A DNA stretch of 64,000 bases, taken from Krasilnikovia cinnamomea (lineage in GTDB: Bacteria > Actinomycetota > Actinomycetes > Mycobacteriales > Micromonosporaceae). This document shows, one piece after another, positions 2,579 to 53,479 of this stretch. A program made the position numbers and the translations under genes. The DNA lies in NCBI RefSeq assembly GCF_004217545.1, contig NZ_SHKY01000001.1:7316001-7380000 (forward strand), read 5' to 3'. Under the pieces are notes generated by a model. The model was not told the DNA's origin, did not search any database, and saw only the letters and a list, made by a program, of their open reading frames with translations. Numbering within the stretch: the first letter of the stretch is position 1; every line of letters begins with the position of its first letter.

Positions 2579-2594
2579 GCCCGGAGGTACGGCG

Positions 2595-3053
2595 ATGACG
2601 AGCACCCTCACGAGTGGTGACCCGCTCACCCTGTCGCGGGAGGCCGACCGCCTGGAGGAGTCGGGACGGCTGGCCGAGGTCGAGCAGCTGTGGCGCGGCG
2701 CGCTGTGCGGATCCGAGCAGCTCGCCCGGTTCGCCAGGTTCCGGCTCGTCGAGCTGCTGGAGCGGCTCGGCCGCGACCGCGACGTCGAGCAGATCTGGCG
2801 TGCGGCCGCCGAGGCCGGTGACTCGCTGGCCCGCATCCACCTCGCGGTGTTCATGGAGCAGCGTGGTGAGCTGGGCACCGCCGAACGGCTGTGGCGCGAG
2901 GCGGCCGCCGACGGCGAGCAGCGCGCCCGCCGGCGGCTCGTGGACCTGCTCGCACGGCAGGGCCGCGTGGCCGAGGCCGCGAGCGTGTGCCAGCAGGCGC
3001 TGGCCGCGGGAGACGGCACGGCCGCCGCCCGGCTCAGCAGCCTGCTGCGGTAG
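2595..3053 (+). CDS. Small TPR/Sel1-like helical repeat protein
   Basis: This 152-residue soluble protein is built from about four helix-turn-helix repeats of roughly 33-36 residues. Each carries a pattern such as aerLWReAA-dGe-ARrrLvdLL or veqiWRaAAeAGDslAri. This resembles Sel1/TPR repeats, which act as protein-binding scaffolds. There is no signal peptide or catalytic motif. It starts 16 bases after the acyl-CoA dehydrogenase, with GGAGGTACGGCG upstream, so it is probably co-transcribed. No function is assigned; a regulator or adaptor role is only a guess from the fold. Confidence 0.7.
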   Translation: MTSTLTSGDPLTLSREADRLEESGRLAEVEQLWRGALCGSEQLARFARFRLVELLERLGRDRDVEQIWRAAAEAGDSLARIHLAVFMEQRGELGTAERLWREAAADGEQRARRRLVDLLARQGRVAEAASVCQQALAAGDGTAAARLSSLLR

Positions 3054-3178
3054 CGGCGCGCGGAAGGGGCGGCCGTCACACTCGCCGGGGCGTGTGATCG
3101 CGCCCGGTGGCGCCGGTGGCAGCGTCAGGGCAGCCGCGGCCGGGCAGACCGGTCCACCACCCGCGAAGGCAGGCGGTC

Positions 3179-3928
3179 ATGAGCTTGTCGTATGTCACCT
3201 ACCGCACCGCGATCGACCGGGAGACGCACCGCCTCGTGCGGGCCACCACCGGCGCCGCTCCGGCGACCCCGGTGCCCGGCTGCCCGGACTGGACCCTCGC
3301 CGACCTGCTGCGGCACACCGGGAACCTGCAGCGATGGTTCACCGTGCTGCTGCGCGACCTGGCGCAGCAACGGCCCGCCCGCCCCGAGATCGACCCGGAC
3401 CTGCCGGCCGACCCGGCGCGGTATCCGCACTGGCTGGCCGAGGGCGCGGCGGCGGCCGATCAGGTGTTGCGGGACACCGACCCCGACGCGCCCATGTGGG
3501 CGTGGGGCCCCGACCACCACGCCCGGTTCTGGGCCCGCCGGATGCTGCTGGAGACCCTGGTCCACCGCGTCGACGCGGAACAGGCGCTGGGCCTGCCCGC
3601 CGAGATCGACCCCGTCCTGGCCGCTGACGGCGTCGACGAGTTCCTCACCAACCTGCCGTACGCCACGCCGTTCGCCCCGCACGTGGCCGGGCTGCGCGGC
3701 GCCGACGACGTGATCCGCTTCGAGTGCGCGGACCTGGACCGGCAGTGGGCGGTGCGCCTGCGCCCCGACGGCTTCGGCCTCGATCCGGACGCCGGCACCG
3801 CGCACGCGACCGTCCGGGCGGGCGCCGCGGAACTGCTGCTGTTCGTGTACGGCCGGCCCGGGTCCGGCGCCAGCCGCCACGGCGACGCGGCCCTGCTCGA
3901 CCGGTGGTGCGCGAACTCCCGATTCTGA
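3179..3928 (+). CDS. Maleylpyruvate isomerase family mycothiol-dependent enzyme
   Basis: This 249-residue protein is typical of the actinobacterial MDMPI/DinB-fold family (TIGR03083 type). The N-terminal four-helix bundle has the metal-site histidine in DLLRHTGN at about residue 46, with further candidate ligands in RMLLETLVHRVDAEQA near residue 125. The C-terminal domain, from about residue 170, is the SCP2-like MDMPI_C part. Members are presumed to use mycothiol as cofactor, but few have a known substrate. The start at 3179 fits the family N-terminus MSLSYVTYR; the longer open frame upstream is unrelated sequence. The gene stands alone, converging with the leftward methyltransferase. Confidence 0.82.
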   Translation: MSLSYVTYRTAIDRETHRLVRATTGAAPATPVPGCPDWTLADLLRHTGNLQRWFTVLLRDLAQQRPARPEIDPDLPADPARYPHWLAEGAAAADQVLRDTDPDAPMWAWGPDHHARFWARRMLLETLVHRVDAEQALGLPAEIDPVLAADGVDEFLTNLPYATPFAPHVAGLRGADDVIRFECADLDRQWAVRLRPDGFGLDPDAGTAHATVRAGAAELLLFVYGRPGSGASRHGDAALLDRWCANSRF

Positions 3929-3951
3929 CGGCCACCGGCGCCACCGGCCGG

Positions 3952-4092
3952 TCAGGCGGTACGGCGGATCCACGCCACGCAGGTCTGGTCGACCTTCGTG
4001 GTCTGCAGCTCCGCCGGGTCGGAGAGGGCGCGGATCCGCACGATGATGTCGATGCCGTCATGACGGCGGCGCCGCGGCCCGCCGGCGGACCT
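3952..4092 (-). pseudogene. Orphan C-terminal coding fragment
   Basis: Just downstream of the methyltransferase, on the same strand but in another frame, there is an open stretch of 46 codons ending in TGA. An in-frame TGA precedes it and no ATG is present. The codons are almost all G/C-ending, and the peptide (for example DIIVRIRALSDPAEL, then KVDQTCVAWIRRTA) looks like the end of a real protein. It may be the remnant of a deleted gene, or the end of a longer methyltransferase shifted in frame. The parent family is not recognised. Confidence 0.35.
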
Positions 4093-4696
4093 TCACGGTG
4101 CTGTCGGTGCGCGTCACCGGCCGTCCGTCGGGGCCGTCCTGCACCCGGTCGTGTTCCGCGCACACCAGGACCTCCCACTCGTGCGGGGCGAGCCGCAGAT
4201 CGGCCAGCACCTCGGCGGGCTTCGGCAGGCGCAGGTCGCCGTGGTCGTGGCGGTCGGCCCAGGGTGCCGGATCGGCGTGCCCCTCGACCAGCAGCAGCCC
4301 GCCCGGGGCGACCCGCGCGGCGGCCTCCCGCAGGATCCGTTCCCGGGGCAGGTCCCCGTGCGAGTGCAGGAACTGCGCCGACACCAGGTCGTAGGCCCCC
4401 TCCGGTAGCCCGGCGGCCAGATCGCGGTGCTCGAACGTGACCCGATCGGCCACCCCGGCCGCCGCGGCGTGCTCCGCCGCCCGGGCCAGCGCCACCCGGG
4501 AGATGTCCACCGCGGTCACCCGCCAGCCGTGCCCGGCCAGCCAGATCGCGTCCCCGCCCTCACCGCAGCCCAGGTCCAGGACGGTGCCCGGGGTCAGGTC
4601 GGCAACCTCGCGCACCAGCGCGTCGTTGGGCCGGCCGCTCCACACCCGGTCGCTGCCGGAGTACCGGTCGTCCCACATCTTCTCGTCGCTCACCAA
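4058..4696 (-). CDS. Class I SAM-dependent methyltransferase
   Basis: This 212-residue cytoplasmic protein has the Rossmann methyltransferase fold. Motif I is VLDLGCGEGGDAIWLA near residue 39, and the acidic strand-2 residue is in VTAVDIS. Motif IV-like YDLVSAQFLH follows at about residue 106, and GGLLLVEGH near residue 132. It resembles TehB/UbiE-type small-molecule methyltransferases, but the acceptor cannot be read from the sequence. The last 6 residues run into low-complexity sequence, and a second coding-like frame continues past the stop (see the fragment at 3952-4092), so the C-terminus may have been altered. Confidence 0.85.
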   Translation of the reverse strand: MVSDEKMWDDRYSGSDRVWSGRPNDALVREVADLTPGTVLDLGCGEGGDAIWLAGHGWRVTAVDISRVALARAAEHAAAAGVADRVTFEHRDLAAGLPEGAYDLVSAQFLHSHGDLPRERILREAAARVAPGGLLLVEGHADPAPWADRHDHGDLRLPKPAEVLADLRLAPHEWEVLVCAEHDRVQDGPDGRPVTRTDSTVKVRRRAAAPPS

Positions 4697-4758
4697 GGCA
4701 GCGTGCGCCGTCGCGGCCGGTACGCCAACCTGCCGTGCCGAACCGGCAAAAGCGAAGT

Positions 4759-4790
4759 CCGGCCGCCGACCCGTGCGGGTCGACGGCCGG
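4759..4790 (-). terminator. Stem-loop after the chemotaxis gene
   Basis: An inverted repeat (CCGGCCG, two unpaired bases, GACCCG, loop TG, CGGGTC, two unpaired bases, CGGCCGG) lies 18 bases past the stop of the leftward MCP gene. It is a likely factor-independent or hairpin-only terminator. There is no T-run, as is usual in actinomycetes. Confidence 0.55.
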
Positions 4791-4807
4791 GACCGGGGGT
4801 TCTCGGT

Positions 4808-5830
4808 TCAGAGCTTGAAGCGGCCGACCGCCGACTGCAGCGCCGTACCCGCGGACTTGAGCTCCTGGGCGACCACGCCGGTCTCCTCCATGGTGGCCGT
4901 CGCGCTCGTCCGGGTCTGCGCGATGACGGCCATGGCCTCGGCGATCTCGCCGGCCCGGGCGCTCGCCGCGACGATGCTGCCGGTCATCATCCCGGCGGTG
5001 GCGTGCTGCTGCTCGACCGCGCTGGCGATGGTCGTCTGGTAGCCGTTGACCCGGTCGATGACCTCACCGATCTCGGTGATCGAGGAGACCACGCCGGACG
5101 TGTCGGCCTGGATGGTGCCGACCCGGGCGGTGATGTCCTCGGTGGCCTTGGCGGTCTCCTGAGCCAGGTCCTTGACCTCGCTGGCGACGACCGCGAAGCC
5201 CTTGCCCATCTCACCGGCGCGGGCGGCCTCGATGGTGGCGTTCAGGGCCAGCAGGTTGGTCTGCTCCGCGATCGAGGTGATGACCTGCACGACGTCGCCG
5301 ATCTGCGCGGACGACTCGCCGAGCTTGGTCATGATGCGGCTGGCGTCGACCTGGGCCGCCATCGCGGCGGCGGCGACCGTGACGGCCTCCGAGGCGCTGC
5401 GGGAGATCTCCTGGATGCTGGCGCCCATCTCCTCGGAGCCCGACGCGAGCGTCGAGATGTTCTCCGACACCTCCTGCGAGGCGCGCAGGATGTCGCCGGA
5501 CGCCTGCACCGAGCTCTGCGCCCCGGTGACCAGCTCGTTGACCAGGTCACCGAGCCGCACCGCGGCGGTCGAGAGCCGGGTCGTCTCGGCGCCCGCCTCA
5601 CGGACCACCCCGGCGAACGCGTCCAGGACCCCGTTGACCGCGGCCGTGGCGCGTGCGGCCTCGCCACGGCCCCGCAGCTCGGCACGGACGGCGAGGTCGC
5701 CGGCCACCGCCCGCTCCAGGACCTCCGCGGTGTGGGCGAGCGCGGCCCGCCGCTGCCGGTCACCGCGGACGACCACGGCGAGGCCGATGAGGGCGAGAGC
5801 CGCCACCGTGGCGAGCAACGAGACAGCCAT
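4808..5830 (-). CDS. Methyl-accepting chemotaxis protein
   Basis: This 340-residue chemoreceptor has one N-terminal membrane segment (residues about 4-21) and a short HAMP-like linker (to about residue 75). It ends in the long signalling coiled coil, whose hairpin tip reads [20 protein letters not shown] at about residue 190, followed by [15 protein letters not shown], the CheA/CheW contact region. There is no periplasmic ligand-binding domain, so it must sense a cytoplasmic or membrane signal. The start has GGGAGTG upstream. No che or flagellar genes are nearby, but a possible FliA-type promoter precedes it (5887-5913), which fits motility-linked expression. A hairpin terminator follows the gene. 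Confidence 0.93.
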
Positions 5831-5886
5831 GAGGACACTCCCGACTTCGCGGCCGGCACCACCCTGTGGCCGACTCCGGGTTATCC

Positions 5887-5913
5887 ATCGGTTGCGGCGG
5901 GGTCACGCTTGAG
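5887..5913 (-). promoter_or_regulatory. Possible FliA (sigma-28 type) promoter for the MCP gene
   Basis: Reading leftward, CTCA is followed after 17 bases by ACCGAT, 57 bases before the MCP start. Flagellar-type promoters reported for Actinoplanes follow CTCA(N15-17)GCCGAA, so the -35 matches fully and the -10 matches in four of six positions. The spacing to the gene gives a 5' leader of about 50 bases. Confidence 0.4.
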
Positions 5914-5942
5914 CGTTTTCCCGCCCTGGATCAACGGCTGGA

Positions 5943-7001
5943 TCAGTCGTCGAAATCCACGATCACCTTGGCCGACGTCGGGGTGGACTGGCAGGTCAAC
6001 ACGTACCCGGCGGCGACCTCCGCGGGCTCCAGCGCGAAGTTGCGCCGCATCCGCACGTCGCCCTCGACCACCCGGGCGCGGCAGGTGCCGCACACCCCGC
6101 CCTTGCAGGCGAACGGCAGGTCCGGCCGGGACCGCTGGGCGCCCTCCAGGATCGTGGCGTCCTCGGCCACCGTCACCGTGGTGGAGCGGCCGTCCAGCAC
6201 GACCGTGACCTCGCTGCTGGGGCCGGCGACGGTGGATTCGCCGCGCACCGGCTCCGGGGGCGCCTCGTCCACCCAGAACAACTCCCGGTGGACCTGCTCC
6301 GACGCCACCCCGAACTCGCCGAGCACGTGCTGGGCGTCCGCGACCAGGCCGAACGGCCCGCACAGCCACCAGTGGTCCACCCCCGCCACGTCGATGAGCA
6401 GGGGCAGCAGCGTACGCAGCTTCGCCGCGTCCAGCCGCCCGCTCAGCAACTCCACCTCGCGGGCCTCGCGCGACAGCAGGTGGATCAGCTCCAGCCGGGA
6501 CGGGTGGGCGTCCTTCAGGTCGGCCAGTTCCTCGGCGAACATCACCGTCTCGGCCCGGCGGTTGCCGTACAGGATGCTGACCTGGGCGTCGGAGTGGCTC
6601 AGCAGCGACGCCGCGATGGACAGCAGCGGGGTGATGCCGGAGCCGGCACCGATCAGCACGTGCCGGCCGCCGGCCTCGACGTCCGGGGTGAAGGTGCCCG
6701 AGGGCCCGGCGACCTCCACCTCGTCGCCCGGGCGCACCTCGTGCACCAGCCAGTGGGACACCAGGCCGCCGGGCACCTCCCGCACCCCGATGCGCGGCGC
6801 GGCGCCGACCGGGGCGCAGATCGAGTACGTGCGGCGCTCGTCGGCGCCCCCGACCGCGTGGCGGACGGTCAGCGACTGCCCGGGCCGGAACGTGTACGCG
6901 TCAGCCAGCTCGGGCGGCACGTCGAAGGTGACCGCCACCGCGTCGGCGCAGAGCCGCTCCACGGCCGCCACCCGCAGCCGGTGGAAATCGCCAGCGGCCA
7001 C
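5943..7001 (-). CDS. paaE: PaaE, reductase of the phenylacetyl-CoA epoxidase
   Basis: This 352-residue NAD(P)H oxidoreductase supplies electrons to the PaaABC(D) epoxidase that forms ring-1,2-epoxyphenylacetyl-CoA. The N-terminal FAD-binding domain has RRTYSICAP near residue 57. The NAD(P) domain has GAGSGITPLLSIA near residue 117. The C-terminal plant-type [2Fe-2S] domain has the ligands CKGGVCGTCRA and a final cysteine in YVLTCQSTP. It is the last gene of the leftward paa operon and follows paaD after one base. The start MAAGDFHRLRV fits the family. Ring ferredoxin reductases look similar, but the operon settles the role. Confidence 0.95.
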   Translation of the reverse strand: MAAGDFHRLRVAAVERLCADAVAVTFDVPPELADAYTFRPGQSLTVRHAVGGADERRTYSICAPVGAAPRIGVREVPGGLVSHWLVHEVRPGDEVEVAGPSGTFTPDVEAGGRHVLIGAGSGITPLLSIAASLLSHSDAQVSILYGNRRAETVMFAEELADLKDAHPSRLELIHLLSREAREVELLSGRLDAAKLRTLLPLLIDVAGVDHWWLCGPFGLVADAQHVLGEFGVASEQVHRELFWVDEAPPEPVRGESTVAGPSSEVTVVLDGRSTTVTVAEDATILEGAQRSRPDLPFACKGGVCGTCRARVVEGDVRMRRNFALEPAEVAAGYVLTCQSTPTSAKVIVDFDD

Positions 7002-7506: not shown

Positions 7507-8414
7507 CAGGCACCCCCGGGCACGGATCGGGCCAGCGCCTGCATCTCGTCGAGAATCTCGGCCAGCGCCGGTGTGTGCTCGCCGTGCCGCCCGGCAGCCC
7601 CGGAGTAGACGGCCCCGCCCGGCGCGGCGGCCACGCCGGCCGGCGCCGTCGGGACGGTGCCGGTCAGCGTCGCCGCGGTCAGCACCTGGGTGAGGACCGC
7701 GTCGAACTCGCCGCGCAGCCCCGCCGGGTCGACCGCGAGACCGTCCGCCGCCAGGTCCGACTCGACCGGGTGCGGCCGGAACAGCTCACCGGTCAGCGGC
7801 GCCACCGCGTCGGCGGCGGCCCGCATGCGCTCGTGCGACAGCGCCGTGCCGTCGCCGAGCCGCACCACCCACTGCGCCGCCCACTCGCGGTGATAGGTCA
7901 GCTCCTTCACGCCCTTGGCGGCGATCGCGGCCAGCATGGGGTCACGGGTGGCGGCCAGCCGGTCGAACAGCGCCAGCCGCCACGTCGCGAACACCAGCAA
8001 CCGCGCGACCAGGTGGGCGAAGTCGTCGTCCGCCCGCTCGGCCAGGCACACGTTGCGGAATTCCGGCGCGCCCCGCTGGTACGCCAGCGCGTCCTCGTCG
8101 CGCCCCGCCCCTTCCACCTGCCCGGCCCGGGTCAGCAGCAGCCGCGCCTGGCCGAGCAGGTCCAGCCCGATGTTGGCCAGTGCCAGCTCGTCCTCCAGTT
8201 CCGGCGCGCGGGTCACCCACTGCTGCAGGCGGTGCGACATGATCAGCGCGTCGTCGCCGAGCATGAGGCAGTACGCGGCCAGCCGCTCCCGGTCAGCGCC
8301 GTCGGGCACGGCGGTGTCCACCCCCGACAGCGGGTCGGCGAAGCCCGTCCCGTACGCCCAGCGGGCATCGTCCTCGTGATCGGTGAGCGCCTCGTAGGCG
8401 ACGTCGAAACCCAT
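7503..8414 (-). CDS. paaC: PaaC, structural subunit of the phenylacetyl-CoA epoxidase
   Basis: This 303-residue ferritin-like helical protein pairs with PaaA in the epoxidase core. Recognisable parts are the helix with LAYCLMLGDDALIMSHRLQQW near residue 45, the ALANIGLDLLGQARLLL helix, and ELTYHREWAAQW near residue 165. PaaC lacks the full set of di-iron ligands and is structural. The start at 8414 (MGFDVAYEALTDHEDDARWA) is chosen because it matches the family N-terminus and follows the paaB stop by 7 bases; the longer open frame upstream runs through paaB. Confidence 0.94.
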   Translation of the reverse strand: MGFDVAYEALTDHEDDARWAYGTGFADPLSGVDTAVPDGADRERLAAYCLMLGDDALIMSHRLQQWVTRAPELEDELALANIGLDLLGQARLLLTRAGQVEGAGRDEDALAYQRGAPEFRNVCLAERADDDFAHLVARLLVFATWRLALFDRLAATRDPMLAAIAAKGVKELTYHREWAAQWVVRLGDGTALSHERMRAAADAVAPLTGELFRPHPVESDLAADGLAVDPAGLRGEFDAVLTQVLTAATLTGTVPTAPAGVAAAPGGAVYSGAAGRHGEHTPALAEILDEMQALARSVPGGAW

Positions 8415-8421
8415 GGCGGCC

Positions 8422-8718
8422 TCAGATGTGCGGTACGGACTCGGGAATGGAGTAGTACGTCGGATGCCGGTACGCCTTGTCCCCGCTGGGCGCGAAGAAG
8501 GCCTCCTTCTCCCCCGGCTGGGAGGCGGCCACCTGGTCGGCGCGCACCACCCAGATGCTGACGCCCTCGTTGCGGCGGGTGTACAGGTCCCGGGCGTGGT
8601 GCAGGGCCATCTCGTGGTCGGCGGCGCGCAGCGAGCCGACATGCACGTGGTTCAGGCCCCGCTTGGCGCGCACGAACACCTCGAACAGCGGCCACTCGTG
8701 CCGGATCTCGTCAGTCAT
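8422..8718 (-). CDS. paaB: PaaB, small subunit of the phenylacetyl-CoA epoxidase
   Basis: This 98-residue protein bridges the PaaAC heterodimers in the epoxidase. Typical segments are [22 protein letters not shown] near the N-terminus, the helix [16 protein letters not shown], and the ending [11 protein letters not shown]. The ATG at 8718 overlaps the paaA stop by eight bases, and [14 protein letters not shown] is the family start. An upstream in-frame ATG at 8766 lies inside paaA and is rejected. Confidence 0.95.
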
Positions 8719-9648
8719 TGCCTGCGCCTCCTCCGCGCTTCGCGGCATGGGCGGCCGCCGCCTCACGAACCCAGGCGCCGTCCTCGTGGGCCTCGCGGCG
8801 CCGCGCGATCCGCTGCCGGTTGAGCGGCCCGTCGCCGGAGATCACCCGTTTGAGCTCCGACCAGTCCACCGCGCCGAAGTCGTAGTGCTCCCGCTCGGGA
8901 TTCCAGCGCAGATCCGGGTCGGGCAGGGTGACGCCGAGCGCCTGCGCCTGCGGCACGGTCATGTCGACGAAGCGCTGCCGCAGCTCGTCGTTGGTGTGCC
9001 GCTTGATCTTCCACGCCATCGACTGCGCGGTGTTGGGCGAGTCGGCGTCCGGCGGCCCGAACATCATCAGCGACGGCCACCACCACCGGTCCACCGCGTC
9101 CTGCACCATCGCCCGCTGCGCCGCGGTGCCGCCCATCATGGTCAGCAGCAGCTCGTAGCCCTGCCGCTGGTGGAACGACTCCTCCTTGCAGATCCGGATC
9201 ATGGCCCGCGCGTACGGCCCGTAGGAGCTGCGGCACAGCGGCACCTGGTTGCAGATCGCGGCGCCGTCGACCAGCCAGCCGATGACCCCGACGTCCGCGA
9301 AGCTCAGCGTCGGATAGTTGAAGATCGACGAGTATTTCTGCCGGCCCTCGATGAGCCGCACCGTGAGGTCGCCGCGGTCGGCGCCGAGGGTCTCGGCCGC
9401 CGAGTACAGGTACAGCCCGTGCCCGGCCTCGTCCTGCACCTTGGCCAGCAGGATCGCCTTGCGCCGCAGCGACGGCGCCCGCGTGATCCACTCCCCCTCG
9501 GGCTGCATTCCGATGATCTCGGAGTGCGCGTGCTGCGCGATCTGCCGGATCATCGTCTTGCGGTAGCCGTCCGGCATCCAGTCGCGCGGCTCGACCCGCT
9601 GATCCTTCTCGATGGTCTCGGTGAAGACCCGCTCTTGCGCATCGGTCG

Positions 9649-9652
<4 letters not shown>
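8711..9652 (-). CDS. paaA: PaaA, catalytic subunit of the phenylacetyl-CoA epoxidase
   Basis: This 313-residue ferritin-fold oxygenase subunit uses O2 and reducing power from PaaE to epoxidise phenylacetyl-CoA. Di-iron site segments are visible as [20 protein letters not shown] at about residue 75 and [16 protein letters not shown] at about residue 155. Substrate-side segments [12 protein letters not shown] and [13 protein letters not shown] are also conserved. It starts four bases inside the paaH end and overlaps paaB by eight bases. Length is normal for the family. Confidence 0.96.
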
Positions 9653-10508
<856 letters not shown>

Positions 10509-10512
<4 letters not shown>

Positions 10513-11290
10513 GGCCGCTCTCCCGTCAGGAAGGCGTCCATCCGGGCGCGCTTGTCATCGGATTCGAACAGGATGGCCTGGGCCAGATCGTCGGTGACCG
10601 GGTGGGCCCCGGAGGCGTCGGCGACCAGCTTGGTGAGCCGCAGCGCCAGCGGGCCGCTGCGGGCCATCCGGTCGAGCAGGGCGTGCGCGCGCGGGAGCAG
10701 CTCCTCGGCGGGCACCACCTCCGCCACCAGCCCCAGCCGGTACGCGTCGTCCGCGGAAAGCCGCCGCCCGGCCAGCAGCACCTGCTTGGCGACCGACGCG
10801 CCGAGCAGGTCCCGCAGCCGCCAGCACGCCCCGGCGGCGGCGAGAATCCCCAGCCCCGGCTCCGGATTGCCGAACGTCGCCGAGGGAGACGCCAGCCGCA
10901 GGTCGCAGGCGTACGCCAACTCCGCGCCGCCGCCCAGGGCGTACCCGTCGACCGCGGCGAGAGTGGGCATGGGCAGCCGGGCGATCCGGTCGAACAGCCG
11001 GCTGTTGATGCCCTGCAGCGCCTGGTCGCGGCCGCGTTCGCGCAGCTCGGCGATGTCCGCACCGGCGGCGAACGTGCCGCCGTGGCCGGTGAGGATCAGC
11101 AGCCGGGGCCGCTCCTCCAGGGCGGCGCAGACCTGGTGCAGGTCGCGGACCATCGCGGCGTTGATGGCGTTGCGCGCCTCGGGCCGGTGCAGGGTGACCA
11201 CGACCCGGTCGGCGAGCTCCTCGACCAGCAGGGTGCCGCCCGGTGACGCTGACGCGGCGTCGTGGGCGGCGGTCGCTCCGGTGGCCGTCA

Positions 11291-11291
<1 letters not shown>
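10509..11291 (-). CDS. paaF: Enoyl-CoA hydratase/isomerase (PaaF/PaaG type)
   Basis: This 260-residue crotonase-fold protein has the oxyanion-hole segments GHGGTFAAGADIAEL near residue 70 and ALGGGAELAYACDL near residue 118, and a NPEPGLGIL catalytic loop with a glutamate. In the pathway it may hydrate 2,3-dehydroadipyl-CoA (PaaF) or isomerise the epoxide to the oxepin (PaaG). Only one crotonase is encoded in this operon, so the second activity must come from this protein or from a gene elsewhere. The N-terminus carries about 20 extra residues of low conservation. The start shares one base with the thiolase stop (TGATG). Confidence 0.85.
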
Positions 11292-12503
<1,212 letters not shown>

Positions 12504-14220: not shown

Positions 14221-14249
14221 TATCTACCGTCCGGTCGGTTGGTTATCAA
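14221..14249 (-). promoter_or_regulatory. Promoter of the paaN-E operon
   Basis: Reading leftward, TTGATA is followed after exactly 17 bases by TAGATA, about 32 bases before the paaN start. The spacer contains the PaaR-type palindrome, so a bound repressor would block RNA polymerase directly. Confidence 0.55.
14226..14239. promoter_or_regulatory. PaaR-type operator
   Basis: The sequence ACCGTCCGGTCGGT fits ACCGNNCGNNCGGT, the core of the TetR-type PaaR operator described in corynebacteria. It is an imperfect dyad, with 12 of 14 positions symmetric. It lies between the divergent paaN and paaI starts, and the TetR gene paaR is the second gene on the right side. Confidence 0.7.
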
Positions 14250-14286
14250 GGGTTTCGGATGTCCAGCCGAGGGAGAGCGGGTGAGG

Positions 14287-14700
14287 ATGGCACGGACCGC
14301 AGCGCACGAGATGTTCGACCGCGACGCCGCCTCGCGCGGCCTGGGCATGGAACTGATCGGGGCCGCCGACGGCGCCGCCGAGGTCCGGATGCCGGTCACT
14401 CCAGCCATGGTGAACGGCCACGACATCGCCCACGGGGGATTCGTGTTTCTGCTGGCCGACACCGCGTTCGCCTGCGCCTGCAACAGCCACGGCCCGGTCA
14501 CCGTGGCCGCCGGCGCCGACATCGCCTTCCTGCGGCCGGTCCGCACGGGCGAGGTGCTCGTGGCGCAGGCCCGCGAACGCGTCCGGCAGGGCCGCACCGG
14601 CATCTACGACGTCACCGTGACCCGCGAGGGCACCGACGAGGTGGTGGCCGAGTTCCGCGGCCGCAGCCACGTCGTGCGCGCGCCCGGGGCGCCCCGATGA
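14287..14700 (+). CDS. paaI: PaaI, hydroxyphenylacetyl-CoA thioesterase
   Basis: This 137-residue hot-dog-fold thioesterase is thought to rescue CoA from dead-end pathway intermediates. The signature MVNGHDIAHGGFVFLLADTAFA at residue 40 includes the HGG substrate loop and the catalytic aspartate. GADIAFLRPVRTGE and GIYDVTVTREG complete the fold. It diverges from the paa operon. GGGAGAG lies about 10 bases before the ATG; a GTG at 14281 with closer spacing is an alternative start. It overlaps paaR by four bases. Confidence 0.93.
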   Translation: MARTAAHEMFDRDAASRGLGMELIGAADGAAEVRMPVTPAMVNGHDIAHGGFVFLLADTAFACACNSHGPVTVAAGADIAFLRPVRTGEVLVAQARERVRQGRTGIYDVTVTREGTDEVVAEFRGRSHVVRAPGAPR

Positions 14701-15356
14701 CCGGGGCCGCCGGCAACCCGCCGGCGCGTTCCCCGCTCCCGCGTGCCGAGCGGATCCCGCGCGAGGGCGCCCGGCCCCGCCGCGGGCGCCCCGGTCACGA
14801 CCAGGACGCCGTGCTCACCGCCGCCGTGCGGCTGTTCAACGAACGCGGCTACGAGGCCACCAGCATGGGCGAGCTGGCCGAACGCCTCGGCATCACCAAG
14901 TCGAGCATCTACCACCACGTCAGCAGCAAGCAGGAGCTACTGCGCATGGCGGTCGACCACGCCCTAGACGGGCTGTTCGAGGCCGCCGACGAGGTCCGCG
15001 CCGGGCACACCCCCGCGATCGAACGCCTGGAGTTGCTGATCCGCCGCAGCGTGCTGGTGCTCGCCGACCGGCTGGAGTACGTGACGCTGCTGCTGCGGGT
15101 GCGCGGCAACACGGCCGTGGAGCAGCAGGCGCTGCTGCGCCGCCGGGTCTTCGACGCGATCGTGACCGATCTCGTGAAACAGGCCCAGGCGGACGGCGCC
15201 CTGCGCCCAGACGTGGACCCCGCGACCGCGGCCCGCCTGCTGTTCGGCATGGTCAACTCGCTCATCGAGTGGTACAGCCCCGCCCGGGGCGCCGCCGAGC
15301 CGCTGGCCGACACGATCACCGCGATCGCCTTCGACGGGCTGCGCACCCGGCCCTGA
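14697..15356 (+). CDS. paaR: TetR-family regulator, PaaR
   Basis: This 219-residue TetR repressor has its HTH at about residues 40-85 (AVRLFNERGYEATSMGELA then ITKSSIYHHVSSKQELL). An extended 35-residue Arg/Pro-rich N-terminal tail precedes it. The C-terminal ligand domain resembles the TetR_C_17/PaaR group. It is translationally coupled to paaI and faces the paa operon, with a matching palindrome between them, so it most likely represses both units until phenylacetyl-CoA binds. The effector is inferred from characterised PaaR proteins. Confidence 0.87.
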   Translation: MTGAAGNPPARSPLPRAERIPREGARPRRGRPGHDQDAVLTAAVRLFNERGYEATSMGELAERLGITKSSIYHHVSSKQELLRMAVDHALDGLFEAADEVRAGHTPAIERLELLIRRSVLVLADRLEYVTLLLRVRGNTAVEQQALLRRRVFDAIVTDLVKQAQADGALRPDVDPATAARLLFGMVNSLIEWYSPARGAAEPLADTITAIAFDGLRTRP

Positions 15357-15362
15357 GCTCGG

Positions 15363-16295
15363 CTACCGGAGTCCGCTCGCCGGGCCGGGCCGGCGGCGCC
15401 GGCGAGCCGTCGCGGAGGTCATCGGCAGGCGCGGGTCGACCGGCTGGCCGGACCAGGCGGCGCGCACCCACGCGTGGGCCGGGTCGTCGCAGGCCAGCCA
15501 CCGCCGCTGACCCGGCCCGGCCATGACGTTGAGGTGGTACAGGTCGTAGCCGGGCGCGGCCATCGTCGGGCCGTGCCATCCGTACGGGATCAGCACGGCG
15601 TCGCCGCCGCGCACCTCGGCGCACACGTCGATCGGGCGGTCCGGGTGGCCGTACGCGCGCTGGTATCCCACCCCCGCCGCGCCGGACGGCGACGCACCCA
15701 CCTCGAAGTAGTAGATCTCCTCCAGCGGCGCCTCCCCCGGGCGCGGCTCGTCGTGCTTGTGCGGCGGGTACGACGACCAGTTGCCGCCGGGCGTGATCAC
15801 CTCGCACACGATGAGCCGGTCGGCGTCGAAGGTCTCCGGGGTGCAGACGTTGTTGACCTGGCGGCTGGCCTGACCGGCGCCGCGCAGTTCCACCGCGACG
15901 TCCTGGGCGGCCCCGTAGCGGAACGGCAGCCGGCGGCTCGCCCGCGCGCCGGGCAGCGCGAACCGGCCGCCGCTGGGGGCGCGCACCGTGACGGTCGCCT
16001 CCCGCGGCAGGTACGCGAAGTCGCTGATCCGGGAGAACACCGAGTCGCGGCCGGTCAGCGTGACCCGCTCGTCGTCGCAGGTGACGTCGCAACCACCGGC
16101 CAGTGGCAGGACGAGCATCTCGTCGGCGCCGGTCGTGAACGTCGCCCGGGTGCCGACCGACAGGTCGAGCACGCGCAGCCCGCAGTACCGCCAGCCGGCC
16201 GACTCCGGTGTCACGACCAGCTCGAACGGCGGCTGCCCGGTACTGCCCCGGGGCACCAGAGGGCCGATCTCGCGCGGTGCGTCGTCCGGGGGCAT
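15363..16295 (-). CDS. iolB: 5-deoxy-glucuronate isomerase (IolB)
   Basis: This 310-residue bicupin isomerises 5-deoxy-glucuronate to 2-deoxy-5-keto-gluconate in myo-inositol breakdown. The metal-binding cupin motif is SSYPPHKHDEPRPGEAPLEEIYYFE near residue 175 (split here over the HxH and E ligands), and the later histidine is in PYGWHGPTMAAPGYDLYHLN near residue 240. No other iol gene is in the window, so it is an orphan member of the pathway. The C-terminal 20 residues are Arg-rich. A perfect 10-bp palindrome lies 85 bases upstream. Its 3' end nearly meets the paaR end (convergent, 6-base gap). Confidence 0.93.
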   Translation of the reverse strand: MPPDDAPREIGPLVPRGSTGQPPFELVVTPESAGWRYCGLRVLDLSVGTRATFTTGADEMLVLPLAGGCDVTCDDERVTLTGRDSVFSRISDFAYLPREATVTVRAPSGGRFALPGARASRRLPFRYGAAQDVAVELRGAGQASRQVNNVCTPETFDADRLIVCEVITPGGNWSSYPPHKHDEPRPGEAPLEEIYYFEVGASPSGAAGVGYQRAYGHPDRPIDVCAEVRGGDAVLIPYGWHGPTMAAPGYDLYHLNVMAGPGQRRWLACDDPAHAWVRAAWSGQPVDPRLPMTSATARRRRRPGPASGLR

Positions 16296-16379
16296 CCGGT
16301 TCCCTTCCAGGACGGTCGGGTGAGCTGAGCGCGGCCGGCACGCCGGAATGGGGGGCAGGTCAGACGTACGCCCTCACTG

Positions 16380-43625: not shown

Positions 43626-46574
43626 ATGGGCTACGGGCTCGGCGTGGATCTCGGCACCACGCACACCGCTGCGGCGATCCGGGTGGACGGGCGCGTCGAA
43701 CCCGTCCACCTGGGCAGCCGCCGACCCGAGATCCCCTCGGTGGTCTACCTGCGCGACGACGGCGAGATGCTCGTCGGCGAGGCGGCCCAGCGGCGCGGCG
43801 ACGCGGACCCGCCCCGGCTGGCCCGCGAGTTCAAGCGGCGGCTCGGCGACCCCGTGCCGGTGCTGCTCGGCGGCGCGCCCTTCTCCGCCCACGCCCTCAC
43901 CGCCCGGCTGCTGACCCAGGTCGTCGAGACCGTCAGCCGCACCCAGGAGGCGGCCCCCGAGCGCATCGTCGTGACACATCCGGCGAACTGGGGGCCGTAC
44001 AAGCGGGAACTGCTGGCCCAGGCCGCGCAGCTCGCCGACGTCGGCGCGGTGACGCTGCGGCCGGAACCGGAGGCGGCGGCGGTCCGCTTCGCGGCCACCG
44101 CCCGGGTCACACCCGGCGAGATCGTCGCCGTGTACGACCTGGGCGGCGGCACCTTCGACGCGGCCGTGCTGCGCAAGACCACGGACGGGTTCGCGCTGCT
44201 CGGCGAGCCGGAAGGCATCGAACAGCTCGGTGGCATCGACTTCGACGAGGCGATCCTCGAACACGTACGCGACACGCTCGGCTCCGCGCTCGACGGCCTC
44301 GACCTCGCCGACGAGCACGTCACCGAGGCCCTGGTGCGGCTGCGCAGGGACTGCGTCGAGGCCAAGGAGAGCCTGTCGTACGACACGGAGGCCGTGCTCG
44401 GGGTGGCACTGCCGCACCTGCACACCCGGGTCCGGATCAACCGCGCCGAGTTCGAGGCCATGATCGGGCCGGCGCTCGGCGAGACCGTGGCGGCGATGCG
44501 GCGGGCACTGCGGTCCGCCGGGATCGCGCCGCAGGAGCTGCGGTGCATCGTGCTGGCGGGCGGCTCCGCGCGGATCCCCCTGGTGACCGAGCTGTTGACC
44601 GAGCACTTCCAGCGGCCGCTCAGCCTGGACGAGCAGCCGGAACTCGGCATCGCCCTGGGCGCCGCCCGGCTCAGCGGGCTCGGCGACGAACCCGCCGGTG
44701 ATCGAGCCGCCGCCCCCCGTCTGGCGGCCGCCGGCACGGCGCCCGCAGCACCGACCTCGCCAGAGTCGCCTGACCCGGTGCCCCTACCTGTGGGCGCGGC
44801 GGTTCCGGGCCCGCAGGCCGCTCCGGCCACCCTGCTGCAGCCTGCCGCGGACGGGGGTAGGGCGAGGCCGGGCGGGACCGCCGCACCGGTCCTCGACCGG
44901 CTCACCGCCGCAGGCGCCGCGCGCCAGCCCGGCCGCACGGACGACCCCCACACCACCGGCGAGTTGCGCCGCACCCTCGCCAGGCCGGGTACGCGGCGAC
45001 GCGCGCTGCGCTGGGCCGCCCTGGCCGGTGGCGTGGCCGCCGCCGTCGTCGGCGTCACCGCGGTCGTGGCCTGGCCGCGCGGTGACAGCGGGGCCGCCTC
45101 GGGCGGAGGATTCGCCGCCTACGAACACTCGGCCGCCACCGTGCTGTGGCGCCGCGACACCGGCGGCGCGGCGACCGGGCCGCCCACGGTCACGGCGGAG
45201 CGGGTCGTGCTGGGCGGCGCGGACGGGGTGATCCGCGCGTTCCGCCGCGCCGACGGGCAGCCGGCATGGACCTACCGGGCCGGCGCCCGCGTGTCCGTCG
45301 CGGCCCGGGTCGCCGGTGGCACGGTGCTGGCGAGCACGGCGGCCGGTGAAATCCTCGGCCTCGACGCCGGGTCGGGCGCGCGGCGGTGGCGCCGCACCAC
45401 CGGCACCACCATCGACGCCCCGCCGACCGTCGCCGGCAAGCACGTCTACGCGGGTGGGCGCGACGGCGTCGTCTACCGGTACGAGGCGGCCGGCGGGCAG
45501 CACCGCACCCGGGTGTGGACCGGTGGCGAGATCCGCACCGCTCCGGCGGTCCGGGGCTCGGTGGCGGTCGTCGCCGCGACCGACGGGCGGTTGTACGGGT
45601 CCGCCCAGGGCCGGCGCTGGCGGACCGCGGTGGGCCGGATCGCCGGTGCGCCGCAACTGGTGGGCCAGAACGCCTGCGTGCCGCTGAACGACGGTGCCGT
45701 CCGCTGCGTACGCGCCGCCGACGGCGCGCCGACCAGCCGCATCGAGCTGCCCGGCACCGGACTGGCCCGGCCGGTCGGCGGCGACGGCGTGGTGTTCGCG
45801 GCGGGCGCCGACGGCAGCGTGGGGTCCTGGGACGCGCACACGGGAGCCAGCCGCTGGCGACTGCCACCGCTGGCCCGGGCGGGAGCCCACGGGGTCCCGG
45901 CGGCCGCGTTCACGGCCGCGCCGTCCGCTTCCGCGCCCGCACCGGCGCCCTCCGGGTTTCCGGCGGTGCGCGCGGGCGAGTTGAACGTCGCCTACCCGGA
46001 CGGACGGCTGCTCGGCGTCGACGCGGGCACCGGGGTCCCGCGATGGGAGCTGGCCGTGGCGGACACCTTCGGCGACGCGCCGTCCGGCGACGCGGCCGGG
46101 GTGTTCGCGACCGGCTCGACCGGAACCCTGTACGCCGTGCGCCCGCCGTCCCCGGCAGCCTCCGCGACCGGCCCGGCGGGAGCCTCCGGGAACTCGTCCG
46201 GCACCTCCCCGGGAACCCTTGTCGATCATGGCGCACCTCCGGGCACGGCTGCCGCGACGGGGACCGGAACCGGGGACGACACCGGGAACGGGGGCGTGCC
46301 CGGATCGGCCGGGCCGCCGCCGGACGCCGCGACCTCCGCGCGGAACCCGTGGCCGCCCGCGACCACCGCCGGCACCGGACCGCCGCCGATGGCCACGACC
46401 GCGCCGCCGGGGCCGGTGGTCACGACGACCCTTCGACCGCCGACCGACCCGGTCCCGCGGACCACGCGCCCGACCTTGAATCCCGACTGGGAACCGCCCA
46501 CGCTCCCCACGCCCCGGCGTCCCGTGGGTGGTCTCGTGCCGCCCAACGTTTCCCGCCCCCGGCCGGCCGGGTAG
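43626..46574 (+). CDS. Hsp70-domain protein fused to a membrane segment and PQQ-type beta-propeller
   Basis: This 982-residue multidomain protein starts with an Hsp70/actin-fold ATPase at residues 1-360: VDLGTTHTAAAI (phosphate 1), VVTHPANWGPYKREL, AVYDLGGGTFDAAVL (phosphate 2) and VLAGGSARIPLVTELL (adenosine). There is no Hsp70 peptide-binding domain. A low-complexity Pro/Ala linker leads to one membrane helix (about 460-483). A PQQ-like propeller follows at about 500-830, with repeats such as VLASTAAGEILGLDAGSGARRW and VYAGGRDGVVYRYEAAGG. A Pro/Thr/Gly-rich tail ends the protein. The layout suggests a cytoplasmic ATPase that is coupled to an outside sensor or binding module. No function is established for this architecture. 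Confidence 0.88.
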   Translation: MGYGLGVDLGTTHTAAAIRVDGRVEPVHLGSRRPEIPSVVYLRDDGEMLVGEAAQRRGDADPPRLAREFKRRLGDPVPVLLGGAPFSAHALTARLLTQVVETVSRTQEAAPERIVVTHPANWGPYKRELLAQAAQLADVGAVTLRPEPEAAAVRFAATARVTPGEIVAVYDLGGGTFDAAVLRKTTDGFALLGEPEGIEQLGGIDFDEAILEHVRDTLGSALDGLDLADEHVTEALVRLRRDCVEAKESLSYDTEAVLGVALPHLHTRVRINRAEFEAMIGPALGETVAAMRRALRSAGIAPQELRCIVLAGGSARIPLVTELLTEHFQRPLSLDEQPELGIALGAARLSGLGDEPAGDRAAAPRLAAAGTAPAAPTSPESPDPVPLPVGAAVPGPQAAPATLLQPAADGGRARPGGTAAPVLDRLTAAGAARQPGRTDDPHTTGELRRTLARPGTRRRALRWAALAGGVAAAVVGVTAVVAWPRGDSGAASGGGFAAYEHSAATVLWRRDTGGAATGPPTVTAERVVLGGADGVIRAFRRADGQPAWTYRAGARVSVAARVAGGTVLASTAAGEILGLDAGSGARRWRRTTGTTIDAPPTVAGKHVYAGGRDGVVYRYEAAGGQHRTRVWTGGEIRTAPAVRGSVAVVAATDGRLYGSAQGRRWRTAVGRIAGAPQLVGQNACVPLNDGAVRCVRAADGAPTSRIELPGTGLARPVGGDGVVFAAGADGSVGSWDAHTGASRWRLPPLARAGAHGVPAAAFTAAPSASAPAPAPSGFPAVRAGELNVAYPDGRLLGVDAGTGVPRWELAVADTFGDAPSGDAAGVFATGSTGTLYAVRPPSPAASATGPAGASGNSSGTSPGTLVDHGAPPGTAAATGTGTGDDTGNGGVPGSAGPPPDAATSARNPWPPATTAGTGPPPMATTAPPGPVVTTTLRPPTDPVPRTTRPTLNPDWEPPTLPTPRRPVGGLVPPNVSRPRPAG

Positions 46575-46583
46575 GCCCCTGGC

Positions 46584-46850
46584 ATGCCGATCGGAGCGCA
46601 ACCTCCGGACCGACGCGGGACGGTCGGGCACCCGTACAGTGCGCTGAATCTGCGTCTGGTGCTGGCGCTGTTCGGTGTCGTCGTCTGCTCGGTGCTGGCC
46701 GTGTGGCTGTGGCGCGGCGGCTGGACCGTGCCGGGCTGGCTACTGGCCGCCTGGGCGGTGGTGGCCGCGGTCGATGCCGTGGTGGTGCAGGTGCGGCGCC
46801 GCGCCCGGCGGCGCGCGGAGGGCGGGCGCGACCACTCGCTGTTCGAGTAG
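46584..46850 (+). CDS. Small membrane protein, DUF6343-like
   Basis: This 88-residue protein has two membrane helices (residues about 24-45 and 50-68), an N-terminal cytoplasmic stretch with HPYSALNLRLVLALFG, and a basic C-terminal tail. The arrangement is that of the actinobacterial DUF6343 family, which has no known role. It starts nine bases after the Hsp70-propeller stop and is probably co-expressed with it. Confidence 0.75.
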   Translation: MPIGAQPPDRRGTVGHPYSALNLRLVLALFGVVVCSVLAVWLWRGGWTVPGWLLAAWAVVAAVDAVVVQVRRRARRRAEGGRDHSLFE

Positions 46851-50312: not shown

Positions 50313-51002
50313 ATGTGGACGATGGACGAGCTGGTGGAGCGCGTACGCCTGGCCCTGGCGGCGCAGTACCCCGGCGCGCCCAACGGCCGCATCCGGGATC
50401 TGCCCGACCGCCGGGCGATCCGGTGGTACGCCACCACCGGGCTGGTCGACCGCCCCGCCGCGATGCGCGGGCGCACGGCGCTCTACGGGCCCCGCCACCT
50501 GCTGCAACTCGTGGCGCTCAAGCGGCGCCAGGCGGCGGGACGCAGCCTCGCCGAGATCCAGGCCGAGCTGGCCGGCGCCGGTGACGCCCAGCTCGCCGAG
50601 ATCGCCCGGATCCCGCCGGACCTGCTAGCCGGGGCCGACCCGGCCACCAGCGCCGAGCCGCCACGGACCCGGTTCTGGGCGGACCCCCCAGCACCGCCAA
50701 GCCGGGCTCGGCCCGCACCGGCACCGCCCGAGACGGTGCTGCCCACCGAGACGGCGCTGCCCACCGAGGCGGCGCTGCCCACCGAGACGGCGCTGGCCGC
50801 CGGAACGCCGCTGCCCACCGAGGCGGCGCTGGCCGCCGGAACGCCGCTGGCCGGGGTGGCGCTCGGTGGCGGGGCGGTGCTGCTGGTGCCGGGCAGCCCG
50901 CGCGCCGCCGACCTCGCCGACATCGCCACCGCCGCCCAACCCCTGATCGACCTGCTCGCCACTCGCGGCCTGCTCGCCACCAACGATGGGAGTCCCCGAT
51001 GA
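50313..51002 (+). CDS. MerR-family regulator with Pro/Thr/Ala repeat
   Basis: This 229-residue protein has an N-terminal MerR HTH (IRDLPDRRAIRWYATTGLVDRP, then RTALYGPRHLLQLVALKRRQAAGRSL and IQAELAG). A long linker contains tandem six-residue repeats of the type ALPTET/ALPTEA. The C-terminal region is hydrophobic and ends in TAAQPLIDLLATRGLL. There is no cysteine effector site. It overlaps the VIT/VWA gene by four bases, so the two are coupled. The ATG at 50313 (leaderless position) is taken as the start; 50277 is also open but lies in the promoter. Confidence 0.82.
   Translation: MWTMDELVERVRLALAAQYPGAPNGRIRDLPDRRAIRWYATTGLVDRPAAMRGRTALYGPRHLLQLVALKRRQAAGRSLAEIQAELAGAGDAQLAEIARIPPDLLAGADPATSAEPPRTRFWADPPAPPSRARPAPAPPETVLPTETALPTEAALPTETALAAGTPLPTEAALAAGTPLAGVALGGGAVLLVPGSPRAADLADIATAAQPLIDLLATRGLLATNDGSPR
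50730..50855 (+). repeat. Tandem repeat inside the MerR gene
   Basis: About seven imperfect copies of an 18-base unit of the type GAGACGGCGCTGCCCACC encode ALPTET-like residues; later copies alternate with GCCGCCGGAACGCCGCTG. The repeat number could vary between strains. Confidence 0.7.
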
Positions 51003-53479
51003 CCTTCTCCGTCCTGCCGCTGAGCGGGGCCGAGCTCGACCGGGCGGTCCGCCCGAAGATCGACGGTGGCGTGGGCATCCTGCTCACCGAGCGCGGCAAC
51101 CTTCCGCTGGACCTGCTCGACGTCCAGGCCGCGATCACGGGGCTCGTCGCGCACACCGTGGTGACCACCGAGTTCGTCAACGTGCACGACACCGCCCTGG
51201 AGGCCACGTACGTCTTCCCGCTGCCGGACCGGGCCGCGGTCACCGGCATGACCATGACGGCCGACGGCCGCACGATCGAGGCGGAACTGCGCGAACGCGC
51301 CGCGGCCCGCCAGCAGTACGACCAGGCCGTCGCGGCCGGGCAGCGCGCCTCGATCGCCGAGGAGGAACGCCCCGACGTCTTCACGATGCGGGTCGGCAAC
51401 ATCGCCCCCGGCGAGCGGGTGACTGTACGGCTGCGGCTGGCCGGGCCGTTGCCGTACGAGGACGGGGCGGCGACCTTCCGGTTCCCGCTCGTGGTGGCGC
51501 CGCGCTACATCCCGGGGGCACCGCTGCCCGGCCCCGCCGTGGGCGACGGGTACGCCGACGACACTGACGCGGTCCCGGACGCCTCCCGGATCACCCCGCC
51601 GGTGCTGCTGCCCGGCTTCCCCAACCCGCTGCGGTTGTCGATCGGCATCGACATCGACCCGGCCGGGCTCACCCTCGGCGAGGTGCGCTCCAGCCTGCAC
51701 ACCGTCACCGGCAGCGGCGGCCACCTGGAGATCCGGCCCGGCGAGCGCGCCGACCGCGACTTCGTGCTGCGGCTGGCGTACGCGGGCGCCACGCAGGCGG
51801 CGATCGCGGTGCCCGACGCGGACGGCGAGCAGGGGTCGTACCAGCTGACCCTGCTGCCTCCGGCGGACGCCGCGGCCGGTGCCCGGCCCAAGGACGTGGT
51901 GCTGCTGCTGGACCGCTCCGGCAGCATGGAGGGCTGGAAGATCGTCGCCGCCCGACGCGCCGCCGCGCGGGTGGTGGACACGCTGACCGGCGCGGACCGG
52001 TTCGCGGTGCTGACCTTCGACCACCAGGTGGAGCGCGTCGACGGACTCGGCGCCGGGCTGGTCGAGGCCAGCGACCGGAATCGGTTCCGCGCGGTGGAAC
52101 ATCTGGCCCGGGCGACCGCCCGCGGCGGCACCGAGCTGCTGGCCCCGCTGGACGAGGGGCTCAGCCTGCTGCACGCGGCGGACGGGGGCCGCGACCGGGT
52201 GCTCGTGCTGGTCACCGACGGCCAGGTCGGCAACGAGGACCAGATCCTCGCGGAGGTCGCGGGCCTGGTGGGGGCCACCCGCGTGCACGCGGTGGGGATC
52301 GACCGGGCGGTCAACGCGGGCTTCCTCGGACGCCTGGCCGCGCTCGGTGCGGGCCGGTGCGAGCTGGTCGAGAGCGAGGACCGCCTGGACGAGGCGATGG
52401 AGCACATCCACCGCCGGATCGGCTCGCCCGTGGTGACCGACCTGAGCATCAGCGCCGAGGGCCTGGCGACCACGGACGACACCCGCAGCCCGTACCGGCT
52501 GCCGGGCCTCTACCCCGGGGTGCCCCTGGTGATCACCGGCCGGTACACCGGCGCGGCCACCGGAGCGCTGACGGTCACCGGGCGCACCCGCGACGACGGC
52601 CTGTTCACGGCCACGGTGCCGGTGCGGCGCCGCGACGAGCCCGCCGTGACCGCGCAGTGGGCCCGGGCCCGGCTGCGCGACCTGGAGGACCGGTACGCCG
52701 CCGGCGAGCACGAGCTGGAGCCGCAGATCGTGTCGACCTCGCTGCGCTTCGGCGTGCTGTGCCGGTTCACCGCGTACGTGGCGGTGGACGCCCGGGTGGT
52801 GGCCGCCGACGGCGCGCCGCGGCGGGTCACGCAGCCGGTCGAGTTGCCGTCCGGGTGGGCGTCACCCGCGGCCGGCGACGCGGTGGCGCCGATGCTGCGC
52901 CTTGGCGCCGCGCCGCCCGTCGCGCCCGCCGCGGCGCCGATGGCACCGGGGTTCGCCCCCGCCCGGGGCTCGGCGCGGGCGGTCGACGCGGGAGCGGGTT
53001 CCGAGGCCAACGCGGCAGCGTACTTCGACGGCGAGGCGGATCGGCACTTCATGGCCGATGCGGCACCGCCGTCGCCTCCGCCGGCAATGCCGCCGCCTCC
53101 GCCGTCGGGTCCGGCGCGGACTTTCGCGGCCGTGCCGTCGGTGATGCGGCTGCCCCGCGGCCACCGCGGCGGCGCCCGGCGCCAGACCGACGCGCTGCGC
53201 GACATCCTCGCCGTGGAGGCCCGCCGGCTGCGCGATGCCGGGGAACTGCCCGCGGCCGAGCGCCGGGACCTGCTCTCGGACCTGGCCAGCCGGCTCGGGG
53301 TGCTGCTGGCCGGGCTCAGCGACCCGGCGGTGGAACCGCTGCGGGCACTGGTGGACCGGCTGAACTCGGGCGAGGACCTCGCCGACCGGTGGCGCGCGGC
53401 CCGGGAGGTCCTGGACGCGTTCCTCGCCGGGCACGGCCGGCCCGCACGGGGGCGCCGGGCGACGTTCTGGAAGCGCTGA
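50999..53479 (+). CDS. VIT and von Willebrand factor A domain protein
   Basis: This 826-residue protein has an N-terminal VIT domain (residues about 15-150, with [21 protein letters not shown] and [18 protein letters not shown]). A beta region and a VWA domain at about 295-470 follow. The MIDAS site looks complete: [13 protein letters not shown] near residue 305, the threonine in GGTELLAPL near 378, and [10 protein letters not shown] near 405. A Pro/Ala-rich stretch leads to a C-terminal helical domain. There is no signal peptide. Such inter-alpha-inhibitor-like proteins bind partners through metal, but bacterial roles are unknown. It is coupled to the MerR gene upstream. Confidence 0.87.

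Follow-up and report, generated by a model that had tools for sequence, protein, structure and literature searches.

Hsp70-type ATPase domains joined to a membrane helix and varied outer domains: candidate envelope receptors of actinomycetes

Background

Hsp70 proteins are known as chaperones, and an Hsp70 ATPase domain that is fused to a predicted membrane helix and a beta-propeller raises the question of what it might do at the membrane. A gene for such a fusion lies in a 64,000-nucleotide stretch of the 7.6 Mb genome of Krasilnikovia cinnamomea (positions 7316001-7380000 of contig C1; hereafter the window), and a preliminary description of its sequence had read the product as an inside-out signalling or surface-assembly device with no established role. 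Using sequence profile searches, structure prediction and comparisons of gene-neighborhoods, we find that the fusion is a real protein architecture and that it belongs to an actinomycete family in which an Hsp70 ATPase lacking the peptide-binding domain is followed by a membrane segment and one of several outer domains. We consider the chances about even that these proteins are outside-in envelope receptors, with an Hsp70 ATPase as the switch where other receptors use a kinase.

Findings

The Hsp70 model of Pfam matches the N-terminal part of the window protein above its cut-off (Table 1), the best stretch aligning residues 82-350 with profile positions 104-372 of 599. The match ends at position 372, and the peptide-binding domain is thus missing. 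Alignment with the two DnaK proteins of the same genome further shows that the DnaK-type interdomain linker is absent. What follows instead is a linker composed of 23% Ala, 16% Pro, 12% Arg and 12% Gly, the only hydrophobic segment of the protein (Kyte-Doolittle mean 2.18), and a propeller that matches the PQQ_2/BamB model above its cut-off (best stretch residues 465-657). No kinase family was found among the Pfam matches of the protein. A full-length AlphaFold2 (AF2) model, built from an alignment of ten sequences, has a predicted local distance difference test score (pLDDT) mostly of 84-97, at lowest 76, in the blocks of the nucleotide-binding domain (NBD), and mostly of 70-90 in the propeller, with dips such as that below 50 at residues 752-768; most of the tail falls below 50. 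The structure matches of this model cover the NBD only, and compared with DnaK entries by VIA-align the NBD reaches its Z score over about 350 residues. For the propeller a separate model was made from an alignment of two sequences, with a mean pLDDT of 77.2 and a predicted template modelling score of 0.77. In structure searches this model matches the designed propeller Cake8 (Z 35.4, root-mean-square deviation 2.8, 307 residues aligned) and BamB (Z up to 34.2). Eight blades, with an N-terminal strand closing the propeller, can be read by eye from the sequence repeats. No second similar PQQ propeller was found in the genome at a threshold of 1e-6.

Table 1. Features of the Hsp70-membrane-propeller gene and the gene downstream (window coordinates)
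Feature	Position	Strand	Basis
Hsp70-membrane-propeller gene	43626-46574	+	Open reading frame (ORF) of 982 residues, no internal stops
Hsp70-type NBD, residues 1-350, predicted cytoplasmic; no substrate-binding domain after it	43626..44675	+	Pfam HSP70 1.2e-46; DnaK Z ~43
Disordered linker rich in Ala, Pro, Arg and Gly, residues 351-463	44676..45014	+	pLDDT <50 over residues 353-500
Predicted membrane helix, residues 464-482, Arg-rich on its N side	45015..45071	+	Hydropathy; segment in 84 of 86 relatives
Eight-bladed PQQ/BamB-like beta-propeller, residues 501-840, predicted extracytoplasmic	45126..46145	+	PQQ_2 2.7e-31; AF2; structure matches
Cysteine pair C684/C694, probable hairpin disulfide	45675..45707	+	Same columns in all seven PQQ-class members
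Pro/Thr-rich disordered tail, residues 846-982	46161..46571	+	23% Pro, 17% Thr; not conserved
Small membrane protein, 88 residues, two hydrophobic segments	46584-46850	+	Begins nine bases beyond the stop codon of the Hsp70 fusion

The Hsp70 motifs, the replacement of the peptide-binding domain and the propeller had all been noted in the preliminary description, and Pfam, hydropathy and the AF2 model bear these out. The NBD-helix-PQQ propeller plan recurs in six other genomes (L044, L045, L142, L143, L179 and L181), and NBDs 72-76% identical to that of the window protein occur in five other genomes among the matches listed; together these rule out an assembly error as the source of the fusion. 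The Pro/Thr-rich tail is present as described, but it is missing from two of the seven PQQ members (L179 and L181).

To define the family we collected 87 listed NBD matches of at least 45% identity from 67 genomes of the Actinoplanes group and recovered 86 genes, leaving out one match near a contig end (G001). A hydrophobic segment follows the NBD and linker in 84 of the 86, with a single segment in 83 and two in L206, while the remaining two genes are cut by contig ends; between residue 350 and the segment lie at least 38 and at most 375 residues, with a median of 147.5. The genes were called from GC content by codon position and the helices from Kyte-Doolittle windows, so that individual calls are fallible. 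The Krasilnikovia genome itself encodes, besides its two DnaKs, six Hsp70-NBD proteins without the rest of the profile, including the window protein; in one Hsp70-NBD protein of this genome (L013:4074-6551, 825 residues) no membrane helix was detected.

Single-linkage clustering of BLAST matches sorts what lies beyond the membrane segment into the following classes: PD40 (31 genes), four-Cys (24), concanavalin-like (conA-like; 10), PQQ (7), YVTN (5), Kelch (1), Ig-like (1) and none (5). Four kinds of propeller thus occur alongside concanavalin-like, four-cysteine and Ig-like domains, or no recognisable domain; one member of the last group, L208, carries an 88-residue tail that belongs to no cluster. 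The names PQQ, PD40, conA-like and Kelch are backed by Pfam scans of chosen members, and the YVTN, four-Cys and Ig-like labels were given from sequence. The four-Cys domain (L009:3213-5249 and 23 relatives) is about 120 residues long; the four cysteines are present in 23 of the 24 proteins, and Pfam gave no match to the domain in the one member scanned. On a quick NBD tree with SH-aLRT support only and a very long outgroup branch, the class labels require 8 changes, the minimum being 7: one each for the four-Cys, conA, PQQ and YVTN classes and two each for PD40 and none. Hence the outer domains appear to have been exchanged rarely and then kept, and frequent shuffling is not seen on this tree.

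Receptors are built in this way, with a conserved inner part, here an ATPase, behind outer domains of various kinds, and this is one reason why we favor outside-in signalling. The other comes from phmmer searches with the propeller, which recovered 7eq5 (1.3e-9) and 7dxn (2.6e-8), both deposited as a membrane-associated protein kinase with a beta-propeller domain. These proteins resemble the window protein in pairing a nucleotide-using domain with a related propeller and, by their deposited name, in their association with the membrane. Propellers of the AfsK type belong to the same comparison, the AfsK profile giving a match of 38.8 bits (cut-off 1300). The difference is that the nucleotide domain of the window protein is an Hsp70 and matches no kinase family. 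PQQ repeats have been reported in kinases, along with one fusion of a kinase with HSP70 (PMC1262709).

The same features bear on the opposite direction of signalling, in which the ATPase would drive a change or clustering of the outer propeller, the latter acting as an adhesin, a scaffold or a factor in surface assembly. In its favor, the propeller has a fold like that of the assembly factor BamB, and the Pro/Thr-rich tail could conceivably span the wall. Yet the outer folds differ by class while the NBD stays conserved, five of the 86 relatives have no recognisable outer domain, and the tail is not a constant feature even of the PQQ class. This inside-out reading, which the preliminary description had adopted, drew no support of its own from our analysis, and varied outer domains joined to a conserved ATPase look more like outside-in sensing; we regard it as unlikely, if the foremost of the alternatives.

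The nucleotide residues of the NBD are largely conserved across the 86 relatives. Equivalents of DnaK D8, T11, T12 and E171 are retained in all of them, as are K247, E248, G312 and G313 of the window protein, and those of K70, D194 and T199 in 85, 85 and 80, respectively. Two further DnaK positions, R167 and N170, which we take to be J-domain contact residues, have changed: the former is an arginine in only 11 of the 86 relatives and a threonine in the window protein, while at the latter every relative has T, S, A or P and none has N. The sequence changes at these positions suggest that the ATPase is likely to be no longer responsive to J-proteins. In comparison with DnaK and HscA, therefore, the NBD fold and the nucleotide residues are shared, whereas the family lacks the substrate-binding domain, the DnaK-type linker and the J-contact residues and has gained a membrane helix and an outer domain. 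The shared features would be compatible with a membrane-tethered chaperone that still uses J-proteins and clients, but with these three elements lost we hold it to be very improbable.

The charge distribution around the hydrophobic segment follows the positive-inside rule in most of the family, the N-terminal flank being the more positive in 78 of 84 relatives. The cysteines of the outer domains are even in number in all members of the PQQ (7), conA-like (10) and four-Cys (24) classes. From these patterns we infer, with good support, an N-in/C-out topology.

We then examined the gene contexts of the relatives. Dynamins of the IniA/IniC type are encoded within 8 kb of 41 of the 86 genes and contractile injection genes within 8 kb of 14, both kinds being present in eight cases. 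One dynamin-linked relative lies in the Krasilnikovia genome itself (C1:255064). The dynamin profile matches Mycobacterium smegmatis IniA (6j72) at 2.7e-164. In a class-wide sample of 118 genomes, 17 besides Krasilnikovia carry the NBD at 1e-45, and in 11 of these there is an IniA-like match no more than 5 kb away, in 13 no more than 15 kb away; here, as for the sheath genes below, the distances are those between matched stretches and were compared by hand. Sixteen stretches from this sample (L213-L228, picked after the dynamin result had been obtained, with G090 and G108 outside the set) include both dynamins in 11 cases, and one of them, L224, ends just before its dynamins, which were found in L296. 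A further set comprised 80 of 591 confirmed relatives, among which at least seven loci from outside the Actinoplanes group had 44% identity or more; six were examined, one (L072) being left out as a 3.7-kb contig. Both dynamins lie near the gene in four of the six, from Saccharopolyspora, Ilumatobacter, Acidimicrobiales and Microbacterium, and two Pseudonocardia loci lack the nearby pair. Helix calls cover these loci except for L066 and L067, in which the Hsp70 gene was not called. Four further loci of the same order (f8; L209-L212) contain a diverged Hsp70-like gene of 28-31% identity with a later hydrophobic segment. As they had been selected for their dynamins, the presence of the Hsp70-like neighbor in all four is not an independent count.

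These neighborhoods recall the mycobacterial iniBAC operon, which responds to cell-wall drugs, envelope stress acting via IniR (PMC5760070). IniA has been found to catalyze GTP-dependent membrane fission in vitro (PMC6715688). In common with that system, relatives of the window gene adjoin an IniA-like and a second dynamin gene and sometimes IniB- or IniR-like genes: the Microbacterium locus has an IniB N-terminal domain above cut-off, and next to another of the Krasilnikovia paralogues is a gene whose match to the IniR model has an E value of 3.8e-69 but a score of 233.9 bits, where the equivalog cut-off is 750. The window gene, by contrast, lies outside such a locus. A dnaK-like gene adjoins iniR in M. 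smegmatis (Boot et al., PMC5760070), the one published mention of a related gene context that we found. A second parallel is offered by the GAP1-N2 GTPase conflict systems, in which an HSP70 without the peptide-binding domain is encoded beside GTPases (Kaur et al. 2020, PMC7159879); they differ in that no membrane-anchored propeller fusion is described there and the word dynamin is absent from the main text of that paper. Membership of the window protein in a known defense system was also considered and set aside, as it has no match in PADLOC; the dynamins match the PADLOC LeoBC and LeoA models, at best with 51.4 bits.

Around two of the Krasilnikovia paralogues Pfam identifies contractile injection genes, namely those for the sheath, the eCIS core, Pvc16 and AAA proteins. 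In 12 of the 67 genomes the sheath shares 80% identity or more with that of Krasilnikovia (the close type), and in 11 of these (the exception being G055) a related Hsp70 gene is found within about 21 kb of it. Other sheaths, judged by eye among the matches listed, have no NBD within 22 kb, the nearest being that of G025 at about 23 kb. In two genomes of other families (G152 and G129) the sheath, AAA, Pvc16, the IniA-like dynamin pair, an SLT-type gene and the Hsp70 gene all fall within 30-33 kb on one contig. These contexts, and the fact that the Streptomyces protein CisA is likewise single-pass and N-in/C-out (PMC12237407), raise the alternative that the family serves as membrane docking or trigger proteins for cytoplasmic contractile injection systems. 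CisA can be compared by description as a single-pass protein tied to an injection system, but its N-terminus is largely unstructured and its outer domain has been likened to solute-binding domains (PMC12237407), and neither Hsp70, DnaK nor dynamin occurs in the main text of that paper. A term search of a paper on an actinobacterial injection effector (PMC13277306) for dynamin, DnaK, Hsp70, GTPase and Actinoplanes also returned none of these. Against a docking role, none of the seven PQQ genes and only the above 14 of all 86 are near injection genes, leaving 72 that are not; an NBD match is lacking in 13 of the 16 other class-sample genomes that have a sheath; and in the third of those with both, G173, the two genes are far apart. 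A close-type sheath is present in all eight genomes with a PQQ-type gene (G035 being counted by its NBD alone, as its propeller is off the contig). However, on an rpoB tree of 66 of the 67 genomes (all but G001, in which the match was partial) this amounts to one independent pair on supported branches and three on all branches. As these are too few, we gave the co-occurrence no weight as a functional link. On balance, a docking or trigger function strikes us as improbable.

Two observations on these clusters stand on their own. In genomes of three actinomycete families (L296, L225, L297 and L011) injection genes have dynamin pairs and a lytic gene of the SLT type next to them, and an injection cluster in L048 carries two tandem Hsp70-membrane genes (7508-12252), with Kelch and concanavalin-like outer domains, between its sheath and AAA genes.

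Several observations weigh against a transmembrane receptor working with these partners. 1) The full-length AF2 model builds no helix at the membrane segment, which has a pLDDT below 30 and lies within a disordered stretch. 2) The charge rule is broken in 6 of 84 relatives. 3) A single outer cysteine is found in 29 of 31 PD40 and all five YVTN members, so that cysteine parity is informative for some classes only. 4) In the G152 relative (L225) the NBD is followed by three hydrophobic segments rather than one. 5) Neither dynamin nor injection genes lie within 8 kb of 39 of the 86 relatives, some of these stretches ending at contig ends, and four of the 17 other class-sample genomes have no nearby dynamin, the match being on another contig in G090 and missing in G111, G161 and G184. 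6) The PQQ class, including the window copy, has no member out of seven near dynamins and none near injection genes; the window copy is therefore an orphan paralogue, and its description as having no established role holds. 7) In G145, ORFs join an Hsp70 NBD to PQQ-like or WD40-like repeats with no helix detected, from which it follows that a propeller on such an ATPase need not be outside the cell.

The first and last of these points would also fit a soluble Hsp70-propeller adaptor, the helix being a false call and the propeller cytoplasmic. The G145 proteins, whose repeats were read by eye, are encoded at 1942-4227, 4206-6638 and 14239-16365 of a stretch (L221; G145:C124:34000-53000) that also holds a dynamin pair, and they are apparently soluble cousins of the family. 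For the family proper, the strong segment in 84 of 86 relatives, its agreement with the positive-inside rule and the conserved cysteine pair of the propeller speak against such an adaptor, which we rank as the least probable of the explanations considered.

The small protein encoded nine bases downstream does have two hydrophobic segments, as first described, but it is a poor candidate for a conserved partner. Its assignment to DUF6343 is below threshold in Pfam (18.3 bits against a cut-off of 27.2), and homologues occur in 65 of the 67 Actinoplanes-group genomes. Near the other PQQ-type genes (eight stretches from seven genomes, the downstream side being off the contig in L144) the search returned only a 16-residue match at chance level (E 0.19), and the placement nine bases downstream was not seen elsewhere. 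A conserved partnership is thus ruled out for this near-universal gene, and the dynamin and injection neighborhoods of the relatives are the better lead. Further along the window, at 50999-53479, an 826-residue protein with VIT and von Willebrand factor A domains (Pfam) is encoded.

Conclusions

Returning to the receptor that we favor, we propose the following sequence of events. The outer domain, in the window protein the eight-bladed propeller, would most likely read a cell-envelope ligand or damage state. Binding would alter how the membrane helices and flexible linkers pack or oligomerize. The Hsp70 domain would in turn change its ATP/ADP state or its self-association, and so recruit or release a cytoplasmic partner. 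The best candidates for that partner in many relatives are the adjacent IniA/IniC-like dynamin GTPases, while the window gene, as an orphan PQQ-type paralogue, would act on its target in trans. A broader version, which we put forward as distinctly doubtful, would make these proteins a new class of transmembrane receptor ('receptor-Hsp70s'), with Hsp70 ATPases in place of kinases as the output behind exchangeable sensors, and the switch of an envelope-damage circuit between Ini-type dynamin membrane repair and death by contractile injection; it is suggested by the encoding of both machines close to the Hsp70 gene in three families (f1, f25 and f36).

Literature searches on Hsp70 lacking the peptide-binding domain, or in combination with a propeller, a dynamin or an injection system, with most subscription papers and bioRxiv outside their scope, returned no description of this family. 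If the receptor model is correct, the joining of an ATPase-only Hsp70 to varied outer domains would represent a new route for information across the bacterial membrane. The iniBAC-like loci, which gene-neighborhoods here tie to contractile injection systems, would thereby gain a membrane component as well.

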